From: Carboxylicivirga sp. M1479
GTDB lineage: Bacteria > Bacteroidota > Bacteroidia > Bacteroidales > Marinilabiliaceae
DNA length: 64,000 nt
Assembly (NCBI RefSeq): GCF_007097485.1
Contig: NZ_VKDE01000015.1
Coordinates: forward strand, 62,792 to 126,791
Reading direction: 5' to 3'
The notes under the pieces are model-generated. The model was not told the origin of the DNA, searched no databases, and worked only from the letters and a program-made list of their open reading frames with translations. This document shows positions 52,122 through 59,080 of the stretch, one piece after another; the first letter of the stretch is position 1, and the number at the start of each line of letters is the position of its first letter. A program made the position numbers and the translations under genes.

Positions 52122-52189
52122 TTTAACACAAACTTAACATTCGCTTAATTTTAAATCAACGCTATACTTAGAACGACTAAGTATGTTTG
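52122..52189 (+). promoter_or_regulatory. PiT promoter with Pho-box-like triple repeat
   Basis: Three 7-bp units with 4-bp spacers: TTTAACA (52122-52128), CTTAACA (52133-52139), CTTAATT (52144-52150), an 11-bp period. A perfect TAnnTTTG element, TATGTTTG, follows at 52182-52189, and the start codon is 34 bp beyond. The unit resembles the TTAACA box bound by PhoP of Bacillus and the 7+4 layout of E. coli Pho boxes. The porin promoter at 59024-59080 has the same arrangement. Confidence 0.6.
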
Positions 52190-52223
52190 CCTCGCGAAAA
52201 AGAACTATAAATAACATTTTCAG

Positions 52224-54473
52224 ATGGAAAACATTTATTTAATTCTGGTCATTGTTTTATTTGCATTGGCCATCTCTGATTTGATAGTAGGTGTTAGTAA
52301 TGACGCTGTTAACTTCCTCAACTCAGCAATTGGAGCCAAAGCTGCTCCATACAAGTACATCATGATTGTTGCTGCGCTTGGTATTTTGTTTGGAGCAACT
52401 TTCTCAAGTGGTATGATGGAGGTAGCTAGAAAAGGTATTTTTAATCCACAGTACTTCATCTTCTCCGAAATCATGATCATCTTTTTAGCCGTGATGATTA
52501 CCGATGTAATACTGCTCGATGTGTTTAATACATTTGGCATGCCAACATCAACAACGGTGTCGATTGTATTTGAAGTATTGGGAGCAGCTGTTGCTGTAGC
52601 CATTATTAAAGTATCAAACAACCCAGAAATGGGCATTAGCGAGTACATCAATACAGCTAAAGCTTTGGCCATTATCTCAGGTATATTGCTGTCGGTTGTG
52701 ATATCGTTTAGTGTTGGTGCTTTGGTTCAATACATTACCAGATTAATATTCTCATTTGATTACGATAAACGCCTGAATTACTTTGGTGCAATTTGGGGTG
52801 GTATAGCAATTACAGCCATTACATACTTTATTTTGGTTAAAGGTGCAAAAGGGGCTTCATTTATGGATGCGTCGACCAAAGACTGGATAAAAAACAATGG
52901 CTTAACAATTATAGCTATCAGCTTAGTTGGCTGGACGATACTATTGCAAATACTTAAATTGGTATTTAAGGTTGATATTTTGAAGATTATTGTTTTGGCT
53001 GGTACATTTTCATTAGCCATGGCCTTTGCAGGAAATGACTTGGTTAACTTCATTGGTGTACCCTTAGCTGGATTTGAGTCATTTAAAATATTTGCTCAAT
53101 CGGGAAGTATCAATACAAGCATGGAGGCTCTTGCTGGAAAAGTAAGCACGCCAACCTATATGCTGATTATTGCTGGTGCCATAATGGTTATTACCCTTTG
53201 GACCTCTAAAAAGGCAAAAGCGGTTGTAAAAACATCCTTAGACCTTAGTCGTCAGCACGAAGGCGACGAACGATTTGGTTCATCTTACTTTGCTCGTTCT
53301 CTTGTACGCGTTTCAATCAACGCTTCCAAAACAGTTTCATCGGCATTGCCAACTTCAGTTACAAATGCTATCAATCGTCAGTTTGACTCGAGTAATTACG
53401 ATGAAAGACGAAAAGAATTGGGAGCTGAAGCGCCAGTATTTGATATGTTGCGTGCCTCGGTAAACCTGGTTGTAGCGAGTATTCTAATTTCGATTGCCAC
53501 CAACATGAAATTACCTTTATCGACCACTTATGTTACGTTTATGGTTGCAATGGGTAGTTCATTGGCGGATAGAGCATGGGGTCGAGAAAGTGCCGTTTAC
53601 CGTATCACTGGTGTACTATCAGTTATTGGCGGTTGGTTTTTCACTGCCTTATCAGCCTTTACAGTTGCCTTTATCATGGCAATGCTTATTAGTACGATAG
53701 GACTTTGGTTTGTAGCTGTATTAGTTGCACTAGCTGTTTATGTCGTTTTCAGAACTCACATCATCCATAAGAAAAACACTAAGACTGAAGATGAAATAGA
53801 TGAGTTTGAAATTGAAGAAGTTAATGGTGAAATTTTGGTAGAGAAAGTACTTGAAAAATGTAAGTATAGTGTTACTGACATTTTAAAGAAAGTATCACAA
53901 TTATATGCTCAGGCCATTAATGACTTTGAAGCTGAAGATCGAAGAAGCTTAAAAGAGATAAATAAAGAAGTTAAGCTGATTAACAAGAAAGCTAAAAAGC
54001 TTAAGGGCAATGTTTACCCTACAGTTAAAAAACTTCAGGAGCAATCAATTGATTCAAGCTTATACTACATTCAAGTTGTTGACTACTTACGTGAAGTAGC
54101 TCATTGTCTATCGTATGTTACTGAGCCAACTTTTGAACACATTGATAATAATCACAAGGTGTTTACAGCTGAGCAATTTGAAGAATTGGTTCAAACGCGT
54201 AATGATGTTCAGGACTTTATGGCCAAAGCAATTCGAATTATCACGCAAGGCGATTATGCAGCCTTAGATGAGTTAATTGAGCAACAGCAAAGCATTTTTA
54301 GTGTTATGCGAGATAACCGCAAAAAGCAGCTTAAACGTATTAAAAACGAAAAAGCTGGCACTAAGGTTAGTCTTCTTTACTTAAATGTGTTGCACGAAAC
54401 TCAAAACTTGATGCTTCACTTGGTTAACCTAGTAAAAGCACAACGTGATTTTATTGATTTTCAATCAAAATAA
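52224..54473 (+). CDS. pit: PiT-family phosphate transporter with PhoU-like C-terminal domain
   Basis: Low-affinity cation-coupled phosphate uptake. The 749 residues hold two PiT repeats, each with a signature: GVSNDAVNFLNSAIGAKAAP near residue 24 and AFAGNDLVNFIGVPLAGFES near 268. About ten or more membrane helices extend to residue 515. From about 530 a soluble helical domain follows (DILKKVSQLYAQAINDFEAE, VDYLREVAHCLSYV) that resembles PhoU/DUF47 proteins and probably senses or regulates. Upstream boxes and the nearby PhoR/PhoB genes suggest phosphate control. Confidence 0.92.
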   Translation: MENIYLILVIVLFALAISDLIVGVSNDAVNFLNSAIGAKAAPYKYIMIVAALGILFGATFSSGMMEVARKGIFNPQYFIFSEIMIIFLAVMITDVILLDVFNTFGMPTSTTVSIVFEVLGAAVAVAIIKVSNNPEMGISEYINTAKALAIISGILLSVVISFSVGALVQYITRLIFSFDYDKRLNYFGAIWGGIAITAITYFILVKGAKGASFMDASTKDWIKNNGLTIIAISLVGWTILLQILKLVFKVDILKIIVLAGTFSLAMAFAGNDLVNFIGVPLAGFESFKIFAQSGSINTSMEALAGKVSTPTYMLIIAGAIMVITLWTSKKAKAVVKTSLDLSRQHEGDERFGSSYFARSLVRVSINASKTVSSALPTSVTNAINRQFDSSNYDERRKELGAEAPVFDMLRASVNLVVASILISIATNMKLPLSTTYVTFMVAMGSSLADRAWGRESAVYRITGVLSVIGGWFFTALSAFTVAFIMAMLISTIGLWFVAVLVALAVYVVFRTHIIHKKNTKTEDEIDEFEIEEVNGEILVEKVLEKCKYSVTDILKKVSQLYAQAINDFEAEDRRSLKEINKEVKLINKKAKKLKGNVYPTVKKLQEQSIDSSLYYIQVVDYLREVAHCLSYVTEPTFEHIDNNHKVFTAEQFEELVQTRNDVQDFMAKAIRIITQGDYAALDELIEQQQSIFSVMRDNRKKQLKRIKNEKAGTKVSLLYLNVLHETQNLMLHLVNLVKAQRDFIDFQSK

Positions 54474-54492
54474 GAGCATTTTATAAATAAGT

Positions 54493-54524
54493 AAAGCCGC
54501 AGGAGTTATTATTCTTGCGGCTTT
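54493..54524 (+). terminator. Terminator after the PiT gene
   Basis: AAAGCCGCA pairs with TGCGGCTTT, followed by TTT; 19 bp past the stop. Confidence 0.85.
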
Positions 54525-54606
54525 TTTATGTACTCCTGTTGGTGAATTATAAGTGAATATTTCGTTGTTATTGCTATAACATACAAGGCTGTTAAGCTAA
54601 CACATT

Positions 54607-55033
54607 AAGCTGTTTGTATTGCATTCAAAGTTGCCAGTCAATCAAACGATGCTAACCATTCATATAGGACTGTCAGGCTTACGTACCGAGATGTCGCTCT
54701 TACATTCCATACTGCCGTTCAAGCATACAATACTTTCGGGCTTACATACGACGCTGGCAGTGTTACAAACGTTCCTGTCGATGTTGCATTCAATGCTGTG
54801 AGTTCTACATAACGATCTGTTGATGCTGCACTCCATCCTGACATTCAATCATTCGATGCTAACCACCTTTCATATTGTACTGTCAGGCTTACATACAGAG
54901 ATGTCGGTCTTACATTCCACACTGTCGTTCAAGCATACAATACTTTCGAGCTTACATACGCGTCTGTCGGTGTTACATTCGATGCTTTTAGGCACACATA
55001 CTATGCTGATTATACAAATGAAGCTATCGGACT
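54607..55033. repeat. 21-bp tandem array with a 210-bp higher-order repeat
   Basis: From 54670 to 55005 sixteen consecutive units of exactly 21 bp can be drawn without an indel; weaker units extend on both sides. Typical units are CTGTCAGGCTTACATACAG-type: nearly all begin CTG/CTT/ATG and carry TTACAT or GCATAC near base 10. The block starting 54670 recurs at 54880, exactly ten units later; the first five units of the two blocks are about 86% identical. Because 21 is a multiple of three, every frame reads as heptads: on the plus strand Leu recurs at positions 1 and 4 with His at 5 (LSGLHTE, MSVLHST). One TGA (54799-54801) interrupts that frame and it lacks an ATG, so I regard it as non-coding. 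It lies between the convergent PiT and PhoR genes. Confidence 0.75.
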
Positions 55034-55078
55034 TTTAGACTCCCATTAAGCACTACAAATACACAAAATGACTACCAC

Positions 55079-56854
55079 TTATTTGGGTAAATTGAAATAA
55101 AATTCTGCACCACCGTCAACTCCATTTTTCACAGATACTTCTCCTCTATGCATATTAACCGCATGTTTAACTATGGCTAAGCCTAGGCCGGTCCCCCCCA
55201 TTTTTCGTGAACGACCTGCATCAACTCTATAAAACCGTTCAAACACGCGTGACATGTGTTCTTTAGGAATTCCAAGACCATTATCTCTTACAGAAAAATA
55301 ATAATACGCATCATCCTCATGGTACATTTCCACGGTTACCTTTACATTTTCGCCTGCATAGGCCAGAGCATTATCTAGTAAATTTTGAAAAACAGAACTA
55401 AGCAATGATTTATTGCCCTTTACTTGAACTGTATCATCTACTTTAAGAGTAATTGTTGCGTGTTGTTGTTTAATTATTTTCTCACGATCCTCTATAAACT
55501 CCTGAACTAAGGGAGCAATCGCCAAGGTACTCCGTTCGTAATAATCGCCTGCTTCTTCAATTCTGTTGAGTAGAACAATGTCTTCAATTAATGCGCTAAG
55601 CCGATTACATTGTTTGGTTGCTTTTTTTATAAAGTAATCTTTTTTCTCCTCCTCAATATCTTTGTTATTAAGTATGGTTTCAAGATAACCACTAACAGAA
55701 GTAACAGGTGTTTTTAATTCATGAGCAATATTCGAAGTCATTTGCTGCTTTAGTAGTTTTCGCTTCTCTAACTTTGTCGTATCGTTTATGTATATCTCAA
55801 AGCTCTTATCTTGGAATAAAATACACTTAATTTCAAAATAATAACTACTCTTTTTAATGGTAAACTCAATTTGAGGAAGGTCCGAATTTTGGTGGGGAAA
55901 ATTGTTTTGAGCTAAATATTTATGAAGAAACTCATGTAAAGTCTTAAATTCTTTTATTTCGAATACCTGTTGTGGGTTTAGTGATGATTTTTCGCCTATC
56001 AAATTAAGGTACTGCACAAAATGTGTATTGGTCAATAAGGTGTCTTTTTCACTTGAAAAGAACCCAATACCTTCGTTTAACACATACAAATGCCTAATCA
56101 ACTTTTCCTTTTCTAAGCTCAAGGCATCTTTTGTTTCCATCATTTTTTTGTACATCGAAACAATTTGCTTTCCGATTACCCCTAGTTCATTCTTCGGGAA
56201 TTGATAATCCTCAACAAGGGGTTTATTTTGACGTAATTGCACAGCAAAATCCTTAAGTTTAGTAATACTCTCACTCATTTTTCCAGTGACGTAAGAAAGA
56301 ATTAACCAGGTTATCACAAACCAAAAAGCAATGAAAACGAAAAATAGCTTCTCAGCTTTCAAAAACTTCTTCACTTCAATGTCATATACTACGGCTGCCC
56401 TTATATAATAGTCGTTGTAATAATGGGCGTAATAATAAAATGCCTGCCCTGTAGTAAGCGATTCCCTAATAAAAGAACCTGCACGATTATCCGCTAATTT
56501 GGCCTTGTTTATTTCTGGACGATTCAGATGGTTTTCCATTTGGGTGTAATCGTCAACAAAATTATCGAATAACACAACACCTTCGACATCTATAAGAGTA
56601 AGCCTTGTATCACCAGTGGGCATAATTTGCAGCAAAGAATCCAACAAATGGATCTTGTTTTTAGCAATTAAATCATTACTACTTATAAAGTTATTGCTTA
56701 GTTCAGTTATGGAATTTAAGGAGTTCTCAAGCTGTGCTATTTTGAATTGTCGTTCTCTATTATATTGGAAGGCTATAAAAGCGATCGTTACAATAAAAAA
56801 AATAGAGAAGTAATAAAAAAACAGCTTTCGTTTAAAGTTTATATTAAAGGCCAT
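55079..56854 (-). CDS. phoR: PhoR-like sensor histidine kinase
   Basis: Sensor of a two-component pair. The ATG at 56854 is preferred to the TTG-initiated frame at 56863. The 591 residues: membrane helix at about 10-30, periplasmic sensor to about 172, second helix (FFVFIAFWFVITWLILSYVT), HAMP-like linker, PAS-like domain at about 260-370, then HisKA with the phosphorylated His in MTSNIAHELKTPVTSVSGYL and HATPase_c (NLLDNALAYAGEN, DNGLGIPKEH, GTGLGLAIVKHAV). The response-regulator gene is 12 bp upstream. Its place next to the phosphate genes supports the PhoR assignment, but the sensed signal is inferred. Confidence 0.88.
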   Translation of the reverse strand: MAFNINFKRKLFFYYFSIFFIVTIAFIAFQYNRERQFKIAQLENSLNSITELSNNFISSNDLIAKNKIHLLDSLLQIMPTGDTRLTLIDVEGVVLFDNFVDDYTQMENHLNRPEINKAKLADNRAGSFIRESLTTGQAFYYYAHYYNDYYIRAAVVYDIEVKKFLKAEKLFFVFIAFWFVITWLILSYVTGKMSESITKLKDFAVQLRQNKPLVEDYQFPKNELGVIGKQIVSMYKKMMETKDALSLEKEKLIRHLYVLNEGIGFFSSEKDTLLTNTHFVQYLNLIGEKSSLNPQQVFEIKEFKTLHEFLHKYLAQNNFPHQNSDLPQIEFTIKKSSYYFEIKCILFQDKSFEIYINDTTKLEKRKLLKQQMTSNIAHELKTPVTSVSGYLETILNNKDIEEEKKDYFIKKATKQCNRLSALIEDIVLLNRIEEAGDYYERSTLAIAPLVQEFIEDREKIIKQQHATITLKVDDTVQVKGNKSLLSSVFQNLLDNALAYAGENVKVTVEMYHEDDAYYYFSVRDNGLGIPKEHMSRVFERFYRVDAGRSRKMGGTGLGLAIVKHAVNMHRGEVSVKNGVDGGAEFYFNLPK

Positions 56855-56866
56855 AAAACCCAATTT

Positions 56867-57559
56867 TTATTGTAATGTTTCAAAATAATAACCAATGCCA
56901 GCACGGTTTTTCAGGCACTCTCCATATTGCTTTAACTTTTTTCTTAGTCGCGTAATATTCACATCTACAGTGCGGTTCGTAACAACAACACTATCTCCCC
57001 AAATAATCTCTAAAATCTCATCTCTAGAGTAAATTTTATTTTTGTTTTCAAAAAGTAAACGCAAAATTTGAAACTCTTTTAGAGTCAATTCTACCATTTG
57101 TCCATCAATTACCAAGCGCTTAGTTTCAAGATTTAAAATCATCTGTTTAAACTGCAATTCGTTTTGATCATTATTTGATACAGCAATAGAACGCTTAAGG
57201 GCAACTTTTACACGGGCAATTAGTTCTTTAAGCGAATAAGGTTTTGTAATGTAATCGTCGGCACCCAGGTCAAACCCAGTTAACAGGTCATCTTCAGCAC
57301 TCTTAGCAGTCAGAAATATAACAGGTACATCAACCTTACGATCATTTCTAATAATGTCAATCAGTTTGAAACCGGACATTCCTCCCATCATTACATCTAA
57401 CAGCAATAAATTAAATCTCCTTAAATCTTTTTGTAATGCCTCTTCTGCAGAGTAAGCGACTTCTGTTTGATAACCTTCGCTCTCAAGATTAAATTGTAAT
57501 ATTTCACAAAGGTCTTCTTCGTCATCAACAATTAAAATCCTTTTAATATCCTCGCCCAT
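56867..57559 (-). CDS. phoB: PhoB/OmpR-type response regulator
   Basis: The 230 residues contain a receiver domain (acidic pocket IVDDEEDLCEI, phosphorylated Asp in LLLLDVMMGGMSGFKLIDII, Lys in VIFLTAKSAEDDLL, DLGADDYITKPYSLKELIAR) and an OmpR-type winged helix (ELTLKEFQILRLLFENKNKI, VVTNRTVDVNITRLRKKLK). It is the likely binder of the TAACA boxes near the PiT and porin genes; that is inference from proximity. It is co-transcribed with phoR. Confidence 0.88.
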   Translation of the reverse strand: MGEDIKRILIVDDEEDLCEILQFNLESEGYQTEVAYSAEEALQKDLRRFNLLLLDVMMGGMSGFKLIDIIRNDRKVDVPVIFLTAKSAEDDLLTGFDLGADDYITKPYSLKELIARVKVALKRSIAVSNNDQNELQFKQMILNLETKRLVIDGQMVELTLKEFQILRLLFENKNKIYSRDEILEIIWGDSVVVTNRTVDVNITRLRKKLKQYGECLKNRAGIGYYFETLQ

Positions 57560-57743
57560 GTAAATTGTAGTTTTTACTAAAATAAGGCAAATTCCATAGG
57601 TAATTAAGCAAATAGTCTATTTAGTGCGATATATCGCTTCAATTGGGCATGAACAGATCTTATCAAGATGCTTCAACCTAGGAGCAATCAAAATATAATG
57701 ACAATTGACATGAAATAGACTGTCTACCTAATTAAACACAAAA

Positions 57744-57773
57744 AAACCTAAGCTCCGTTTGAAACTTAGGTTT
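57744..57773 (-). terminator. Terminator after the porin gene
   Basis: AAACCTAAG pairs with CTTAGGTTT across 12 nt, with TTTT following on the minus strand. Confidence 0.8.
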
Positions 57774-57795
57774 TAAATATTTCTGTTACAATGGC

Positions 57796-58941
57796 TTAGA
57801 ATTGGAATTCCATCTGAAACCTCGTAATGATTTGATCTTGCTTTGATACTTTATCGCGGAAAGTTACATCGCCCTGGAACTTAAACTTATGCCCAATGAT
57901 GTATTTACTTACACAAATCGTATAGTCGGTAATCTCAGTGTGGAAAGCTGCTTCATTAGGTTTGGTAAAAGCATATCGTCCAGATAACTCCCAGTTACTT
58001 TTAAAAAGATAACCCGTTTGAACATTAGCACCATACCCTGTATAATAGGCCGTTTCAATATCACCATTTTCGTCGTATACAAATTCATTGTCATCAGTGA
58101 CCGATCTATTGGCCGCTTCAACCATTAATGAGTATCCTCGATATTTTAGCAAGAGGTCACCGCCTATGTTTAAAAGGTCGGCCTCTCCACCAATTACATC
58201 ACCAATTTGACCTCTTTCTTTATAGGCGTCTTTATTAAAGTTTGCGTAAGCAGCAACTGCAATCTTGGGCTTCTCTTCACGTGTTAAATCGGCCGATTTA
58301 TAGGCTCCTTTCGAACTAAATTCACCTAAGGGCATCATTTCAAACTTACCTGTAAAACTCATTCCTGGCGCCATTGAATTATCCTTAATTCCGTTACCCG
58401 ACGTAACAGCCCAACGGTCGTAAATTACAGCTTTGCCAATATTAAATTTATGGTGAAATTGAATACCTGCATCCCTGTCTAAGGTATAGTTCTTATTAAA
58501 TATTGATCGATCGACCAATTGTAGGTTTCCCGATGACACAACACGCTCGCGGTTACCAGGCAATTTACCTTGACCAAACCACAATTCAATATTGTTTTTC
58601 TTGTATTTAAATATGGCATCTCTTACATATCCACCTGCCAAATCATATTCGATTTTATAAACCAGGCTTTTATTAATAAAATAACCATCGAACTTTAAGC
58701 GTGCACGTTTAACCCATGCCTTATTCTCAAATTCAGCAGGACCTAATGAATTACTTAAAGTATTTTCAAAGTCCCACCTAGTCTGTATTCTGGTCCTGAA
58801 CTTTAGGTAAAAAAGATCGTCTTCAGTTTTAAATTGAATACCTTTTCCAACCTGTGCAGATAAATCCTTAATCGTCTGTGCTTTAATACTCACAGTGCAT
58901 ACCAGCACCATTAACGCACTCAATAGTAAAAAACGTTTCAT
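57796..58941 (-). CDS. Phosphate-selective porin (OprO/OprP family)
   Basis: Outer-membrane channel for phosphate. The start at 58941 gives a signal peptide (MKRFLLLSALMVLVCTVSIK); the frame to 58989 adds a non-signal leader. The 381 residues match the OprO/P pattern: FYLKFRTRIQTRWDFENTL, VKRARLKFDGYFINKSLVYK, and WFGQGKLPGNRERVVSSGNL, ending TRFQMEFQF with a terminal Phe. A Pho-box-like promoter lies upstream. Confidence 0.85.
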   Translation of the reverse strand: MKRFLLLSALMVLVCTVSIKAQTIKDLSAQVGKGIQFKTEDDLFYLKFRTRIQTRWDFENTLSNSLGPAEFENKAWVKRARLKFDGYFINKSLVYKIEYDLAGGYVRDAIFKYKKNNIELWFGQGKLPGNRERVVSSGNLQLVDRSIFNKNYTLDRDAGIQFHHKFNIGKAVIYDRWAVTSGNGIKDNSMAPGMSFTGKFEMMPLGEFSSKGAYKSADLTREEKPKIAVAAYANFNKDAYKERGQIGDVIGGEADLLNIGGDLLLKYRGYSLMVEAANRSVTDDNEFVYDENGDIETAYYTGYGANVQTGYLFKSNWELSGRYAFTKPNEAAFHTEITDYTICVSKYIIGHKFKFQGDVTFRDKVSKQDQIITRFQMEFQF

Positions 58942-59023
58942 GTTATTCCTGTGTAGAATTCTTAAATTTCCAGAAAAATCATTCCCCAATATTTCCTGGT
59001 GATTTGTTATTATTTTCCGGGTG

Positions 59024-59080
59024 CAAACCTAAAGTTGTTTTATTACGTGAGTGTTAAGAAACTGTTACATTTCTGTTACA
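59024..59080 (-). promoter_or_regulatory. Porin promoter with Pho-box-like triple repeat
   Basis: Read along the coding strand, the units are TGTAACA (59080-59074), TGTAACA (59069-59063) and CTTAACA (59058-59052), separated by 4 bp; after 20 bp comes TAGGTTTG (59031-59024), a perfect TAnnTTTG. In the PiT promoter the last unit-to-element gap is 31 bp, i.e. one 11-bp step more, so the units keep the same phase. Confidence 0.65.

Follow-up and report, generated by a model that had tools for sequence, protein, structure and literature searches.

The question raised by this locus is whether two short arrays of direct repeats, one upstream of a gene for a phosphate transporter of the PiT family (PiT1) and one upstream of a gene for a porin-like protein, are Pho boxes, and which regulator reads them. 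The window is the whole stretch of 64,000 nucleotides (nt) that was analysed, and is part of the 5.4 Mb genome (G000) of Carboxylicivirga sp. M1479. Judged by sequence both arrays are Pho boxes of the known kind: they have at least two 7 base pair (bp) direct repeats at an 11-bp period, and such arrays precede PiT, pst, phoU, phoB and porin-like genes, in relatives also. We think it probable that they are sites for a Pho-response activator, and that two PhoB-like paralogues read slightly different spellings of the unit. The new parts of this work are the phase of the arrays relative to the promoter, a rule that is well supported by sequence across the promoters compared, and the proposed assignment of the two spellings to two regulators.

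The initial annotation described three 7-bp units with 4-bp spacers before each gene. The units and spacers are where it placed them, but each array has four positions and not three, the last being CGTAATA before the porin gene and the degenerate ATCAACG before PiT1 (Table 1). The distances given from the third unit to the -7 element TAnnTTTG are also right, at 31 nt for PiT1 (TATGTTTG) and 20 nt for the porin gene (TAGGTTTG); counted from the fourth position they are 20 and 9 nt, and across the family PiT1 and porin promoters differ by one 11-bp step.

PiT was detected in 60 of 71 family genomes, and we compared the DNA upstream of 46 of the 47 close PiT1 orthologues (30 promoters from returned loci and 16 fetched; G023, with PiT at a contig end, is excluded and more distant PiT copies are not counted). 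In 43 of the 46 exactly 20 nt separate the fourth position from the -7 element, and in 40 the fourth position has AA at its positions 4-5. Mean information per column is 1.30, 1.46, 0.96 and 0.61 bits for array positions 1 to 4 and 1.47 bits for the -7 element, with 0.14 bits upstream of the array and 0.24 bits in the 20-nt gap. Position 2 of the second unit is T in all 46. The G051 promoter has a three-unit array ending 20 nt before the -7 element, and by eye the promoters of G045 and G052 can be read as three units ending 20 nt before TATTTTAG or TACTTTAG, which replace TAnnTTTG. The porin-like protein has matches in 18 of the 71 genomes, 13 of them close orthologues (72-100% identity), and 12 of these had their promoters scored, as G007, where no array was seen, is omitted from the counts. 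In 11 of the 12 the lattice stops 9 nt short of the -7 element, G047 being off by one, and in seven aligned porin promoters the unit positions are mostly invariant and the flanks divergent.

For the phase we scored five promoter sets by a rule that ignores phase, and 87 of the 94 sequences could be scored, the other 7 having no pair over threshold or no TTTG. In 84 of the 87 the -7 element lies 9 nt, modulo 11, from the end of a unit, a value given by 9.3% of shuffled downstream DNA. Set by set the figures are 44/44 for PiT1, 11/12 for the porin gene, 6/6 for pstS and a second porin-like gene, 17/19 for PiT genes of genomes without detected PhoB2 (the second regulator, treated below) and 6/6 for pst promoters of other Bacteroidia, although the 87 are not independent events because many of them are related. 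A scan of 14 genomes of the genus, with a two-unit pattern and a free gap to the promoter element, gave 126 matches (68 for the reversed pattern), 48 of them in phase 9. All 33 matches that coordinates assign to PiT1, PiT2, porin or pstS genes (25 promoters) are in phase, against 15 of 93 elsewhere. The claim that the 11-bp step puts both arrays on the same helical face is thus supported, by the scored promoters and by the genus scan. The arrays stand at a fixed position relative to a promoter element, one of the marks by which a Pho box is recognised.

A scan for the motif, the check put forward in the initial annotation, finds the Pho genes in this genus-wide form but does not yield a regulon when the triple pattern is used alone on the genome itself. 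There the PiT-type pattern has a single perfect match, at PiT1, and with up to 3 mismatches it occurs at 80 places, against 36 for the reversed control. We rejected it as a regulon definition because five of the best other places (L002-L006, two with 1 mismatch and three with 2) fall within or close to genes whose translations show no evident link to phosphate. The TGTAACA-type pair pattern has one perfect match in the genome, at the porin gene (27 against 12 for the control). Within the window the three-unit pattern with up to 3 mismatches has 3 matches where 0.35 are expected, a number reached in 0 of 100 shuffles.

The association with Pho genes extends to other genera. Of 10 loci from Bacteroides, Parabacteroides and Odoribacter, 7 have a TGTAACA-like array before pstC or pstS (none was found in L201, L205 and L208), and the 6 arrays that can be scored all end 9 nt before the -7 element; these 7 loci, already known to have an array, are the other-Bacteroidia set of the phase scoring. 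In 80 named PhoB loci (1.30 Mb) 16 arrays exceed a threshold of 26, and the reversed sequence has 1. The gene that follows, read from translations, is phoU in 4 cases, phoB in 3, PiT in 3, porin-like in 4 (matches in 3 loci, with L054 uncertain), pstS in 1 and unassigned in 1; Pho genes are over-represented in these loci because the loci were selected around phoB. In B. fragilis PhoB is reported to be required for induction of pstC and to bind a 512-bp pstC promoter fragment (PMC3547664). The proposal of a Pho box phased on promoters stands, by sequence, for the PiT, porin, pst, phoU and phoB genes, but the arrays do not look like a single box and come in two spellings.

The spellings differ at position 2 of the unit, and we infer, in a form open to direct test, that TGTAACA (G-type, at porin and pst genes) tracks PhoB1, the regulator encoded in the window, and that TTTAACA (T-type, at PiT) tracks PhoB2. 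In family genomes with PhoB1 all 16 porin or pst arrays examined contain a pair of neighbouring units with G at position 2, and where PhoB1 was not detected 1 of 9 does, by manual reading of the printed units (Fisher p = 8e-6, with promoters taken as independent). When the first two units of each best triple are counted automatically, G,G is found in 13 of 16 against 0 of 9. All 44 scored PiT promoters of the family have T,T as their best pair, PhoB1 present or not. Where PhoB2 was not detected the best pair is G,G in 17 of the 19 scored of 21 given (L288 being weak), the other two being G,T and T,G. Left out of the counts are the pstS arrays of G033 (score 25; TGTAATA/TATAACC/TGTAACA) and G069 (AATAACA/TGTAACA/TGTAACA), and G029, where the PhoR1 match is to a shorter frame and PhoB was not found at 1e-70, is treated as having PhoB1 in the PiT comparison and omitted from the spelling count.

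The recognition helices differ in a parallel way. At the position of E. coli residue 201 there is Arg in 16 of 16 family PhoB1 open reading frames and in 68 of 68 displayed named PhoB1 proteins (of the 80 named, 71 were parsed); of 30 PhoB2 proteins 29 have Lys there. Arg201 of E. coli PhoB bonds a guanine, according to a paper on PmrA (PMC3973317), and with Arg in PhoB1 and Lys in PhoB2 this makes a specificity switch through this position plausible.

PhoB2 belongs to the second of two PhoBR-like pairs in the genome. At G000:C43:84164-88511 (L159) a second PiT gene is divergent from genes for a PhoR-like histidine kinase and PhoB2, and the locus adjoins a TonB-dependent receptor gene. PhoB2 is 35% identical to PhoB1 and scores 211 bits with NF053854, below its cut-off of 270. 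It is present in 49 of the 71 family genomes at 1e-80, and in 45 of the 46 with a compared PiT1 promoter, the exception being G027, which is 86% complete; among 32 genomes reached through named PhoB loci it is present in 2 at 1e-75. The sensor part of PhoR1 was found in 26 of the 71 and in 13 of the 46, and with all search candidates scored a window-type PhoR was not detected in the remaining 33. As side observations, a two-unit T-type box, CTTAACATTGTTTTAACA, stands before the kinase gene of the PhoB2 locus and like pairs recur in several members of the genus, and one in-frame stop is reported within each of four matches (PhoB in G013:C55 and G014:C67, PiT in G081 and G094).

By sequence the lattice consists of direct 7-bp units, one per 11 bp, in four positions ending 9 or 20 nt before TAnnTTTG. 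By analogy with E. coli PhoB, each pair of neighbouring units would be occupied by a phosphorylated PhoB-type regulator as a single head-to-tail dimer; the bound regulator would lie on the helix face from which it can contact RNA polymerase, and would substitute for a -33 element. PhoB1, with Arg at the guanine-contacting helix position, would read TGTAACA arrays such as that of the porin gene, and the PhoB2 of G000:C43, with Lys there, would read TTTAACA arrays such as that of PiT1, probably with some overlap of targets.

Several points weigh against this division of labour. Both the spelling and the regulator follow lineage, so shared ancestry could mimic a link between them; with one entry per genus the comparison within the family falls to 3/3 against 0/6 (p 0.012), with two genera on both sides. 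Calls of PhoB absence come from a search in which no more than 40 candidates were scored in each genome. The mapping of the Arg201 contact to the G at unit position 2 is our own, and the passage cited names no particular G. G010 has no detected PhoB1 or PhoR1, and its porin gene has TGTAACG/CGTAACG; G017 is mixed in spelling, and in several genomes with PhoB2 the PiT2 arrays start with a G-type unit. G091 has PhoB2 and no clear PiT array, and in G100 and G082, without PhoB2, the PiT array is absent or weak. The pst promoters of ten genomes without detected PhoB1 (G002, G003, G009, G021, G022, G024, G031, G037, G046 and G056, left out of the counts) have no convincing array, and in the window no array above threshold was found before phoB1.

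The closest competitor is that PhoB1 alone reads both arrays, the view of the initial annotation, and that the spellings are strong and weak versions of one box. The phoB1 and phoR1 genes do lie between PiT1 and the porin gene as was noted, the TAACA cores, period and phase are common to both arrays, and one porin unit, the third (CTTAACA), is of the T-type. However the location does not require PhoB1 to read the PiT box, as there is a second PhoBR-like pair elsewhere in the genome, and the spelling and register of the PiT array are kept in the 33 of 46 genomes without detected PhoR1. In such genomes 8 of 9 porin/pst arrays have no two G-type units side by side, and in G008 and G017 the PiT and porin genes are neighbours, less than 1 kb apart and with no intervening phoBR. 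We therefore consider a single regulator unlikely, though it is the alternative to be taken most seriously.

It is considerably less probable that the arrays belong to some other OmpR-family regulator with a TTAACA-like box, for which phosphate genes are only part of the targets. Such breadth has a precedent in the PhoP of Riemerella, which in DNA affinity purification sequencing (DAP-seq) is reported to give 583 peaks upstream of 764 genes and to have a motif resembling that of E. coli ArcA (PMC9603813), and in one member of the genus TTAACA repeats precede the gene for a small Cys/Lys-rich protein. Against this, 14 or 15 of the 16 arrays in the 80 PhoB loci precede phoU, phoB, PiT, porin-like or pstS genes, and adherence to the phase is complete at Pho genes but weak at other sites. 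That the arrays are chance repeats in AT-rich DNA (the window has a GC content of 0.36), among which the many imperfect TTAACA triples of the genome might be counted, is scarcely credible given in-register conservation over 46 family promoters with poorly conserved flanks, which speaks strongly against it, and phase 9 in nearly all scored promoters.

Some other TAACA-like sites were seen in the course of the scans. In L314 (G010:C10) TTAACA repeats outside the Pho phase precede a gene for a small Cys/Lys-rich exported protein, with similar strings in other genomes of the genus, and the TTAACA-repeat site at G000:C47:11336-11403 may equal it. A gene for a 100-residue ArsR-like regulator in L338 and L339 has a two-unit box 9 nt before TATATTTG, and similar strings occur in three more genomes. 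At G000:C48:73616-73652, and in L316 and L323, two TAACA-like units lie 13 nt before a -7 element, a phase unlike that of Pho promoters; the promoter-like string of G000:C48 is matched in 13 of 14 genomes of the genus and precedes a gene for a 223-residue protein in the two inspected.

The features of the locus are collected in Table 1. The window PhoB and PhoR both score above the NCBIfam cut-offs for the Bacteroides-type proteins, and among the named contigs returned the nearest relative of PhoB1 is in a Saccharicrinis metagenome-assembled genome (Marinilabiliaceae), at 67% identity. The porin-like protein, examined as a candidate phosphate-selective porin O/P (OprP), has no Pfam match (E-values up to 5), no NCBIfam match and no PDB profile match (E-values up to 1). 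A PhoU-like C-terminal domain was sought by sequence in PiT1 and not found, and a sigma-70 scan of the interval between the porin gene and phoB1 found no promoter. In the non-coding DNA between PiT1 and phoR1, at about 54640-55000, an imperfect direct repeat of roughly 200 bp was spotted by eye. A second porin-like family, relatives of the G011 porin, is encoded just 3' of PiT1 in many family genomes (L160, L230, L232 and many of L090-L118).

Table 1. Features of the PiT1-porin locus, in window coordinates (aa, amino acids)
Feature	Position	Strand	Details
T-type Pho-box array of PiT1	52122..52161	+	11-bp period: TTTAACA 52122-52128, CTTAACA 52133-52139, CTTAATT 52144-52150, ATCAACG (degenerate fourth position) 52155-52161
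-7 element of PiT1 promoter, TATGTTTG	52182-52189	+	conserved across family promoters
PiT1 phosphate transporter	52224..54473	+	PF01384, 749 aa
PhoR1, Bacteroides-type sensor kinase	55079..56863	-	NF053855, 642 bits (cut-off 500)
PhoB1, Bacteroides-type response regulator	56867..57559	-	NF053854, 310.6 bits (cut-off 270); recognition helix RTVDVNITRLR
Terminator-like hairpin	57743..57774	-	in gap between porin gene and phoB1, where some relatives have pst-phoU genes
Porin-like protein	57796..58941	-	"porin" is the name used in the initial annotation
-7 element of porin promoter, TAGGTTTG	59031-59024	-	
G-type Pho-box array of porin gene	59041..59080	-	11-bp period: TGTAACA 59080-59074, TGTAACA 59069-59063, CTTAACA 59058-59052, CGTAATA 59047-59041

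The gap between the porin gene and phoB1 bears on the history of the locus. In G011, G015, G048, G049 and G050 a porin-like gene is followed by pstSCAB-phoU, phoB1 and phoR1, with a G-type array in front (the order is a reading of the genes, with PstC identified by TIGR02138), and in G051 and G052 the positions of the array, PstC and PhoB1 are consistent with the same order. Unlike these relatives the window has no pstSCAB-phoU genes between the porin gene and phoB1 (57560-57795), and after the hairpin comes phoB1. No PstC match was found in the G000 genome, and PhoU was not searched genome-wide. The arrangement is consistent with loss of the pst-phoU genes, and the PhoBR pair has apparently been kept without Pst.

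Put together, this suggests a wider scheme that we advance tentatively, as one about which opinion could fairly divide. Bacteroidota would have two Pho regulators with two operator codes, G with Arg201 and T with Lys201, on one lattice placed 9 + 11n nt before the -7 element, and would use them for separate uptake signals. Two codes on one lattice would allow PiT uptake and porin/Pst uptake to run on separate phosphate signals. After loss of Pst-PhoU in the lineage of the window, phoB1R1 and the porin gene would form a circuit without Pst-PhoU.

If these proposals hold, the units, the phase and the two spellings provide a usable Pho-box definition for Bacteroidales, one not spelled out in those parts of the cited papers that were consulted, and Pho regulons would thereby become predictable in more Bacteroidales genomes. 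They also offer a direct test of whether paralogous PhoB proteins have co-evolved with their operators through a single helix residue, and point to a PhoBR pair retained after loss of the Pst-PhoU genes. In the portion of the open-licence literature that was searched we found no description of the array architecture, the -7 phasing or two box types in Bacteroidota.

With regard to known systems, the PhoP box of Bacillus subtilis has TTAACA-like units at 11 bp, in a different phylum and with a different promoter type and regulator. A study of marine bacteria, Flavobacteria included, reports computer-predicted Pho boxes in plcP clusters, with no sequence, period, spacing or Bacteroidota assignment in the text available (PMC4796936). 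The initial annotation proposed a Pho regulon box for this lineage. The TTTAACA core, identical to the first PiT unit, was already published for PhoP of Riemerella anatipestifer, where it is stated in the legend to Figure 2 and is based on DAP-seq and electrophoretic mobility shift assays (PMC9603813); the text examined describes no 11-bp array, -7 spacing or second regulator, and it is the phase rule and the two spellings that appear to be new. The phoBR genes of Flavobacterium johnsoniae lie beside TonB-dependent receptor and lipoprotein genes induced by phosphate depletion, and so resemble the PhoB2 locus, in gene context only, as the part of that paper seen describes no box (PMC8115612). 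The E. coli Pho box also has 7-bp direct repeats with 4-bp spacers and head-to-tail PhoB (PMC4415409), but here the core is TAACA and not TGTCA, there are four or more positions and a Bacteroidota -7 element, and two regulators are proposed. B. fragilis differs in that here the array belongs to the porin gene and the genome has no PstC match, and no box sequence is given in the accessible text of the B. fragilis paper (PMC3547664). PhoB1 is nonetheless like its PhoB in exceeding the cut-off of the NCBIfam model for Bacteroides PhoB, and in other Bacteroides and Parabacteroides the pst promoters carry TGTAACA-like units, the last of them 9 nt from the -7 element, just as in the porin promoter here.

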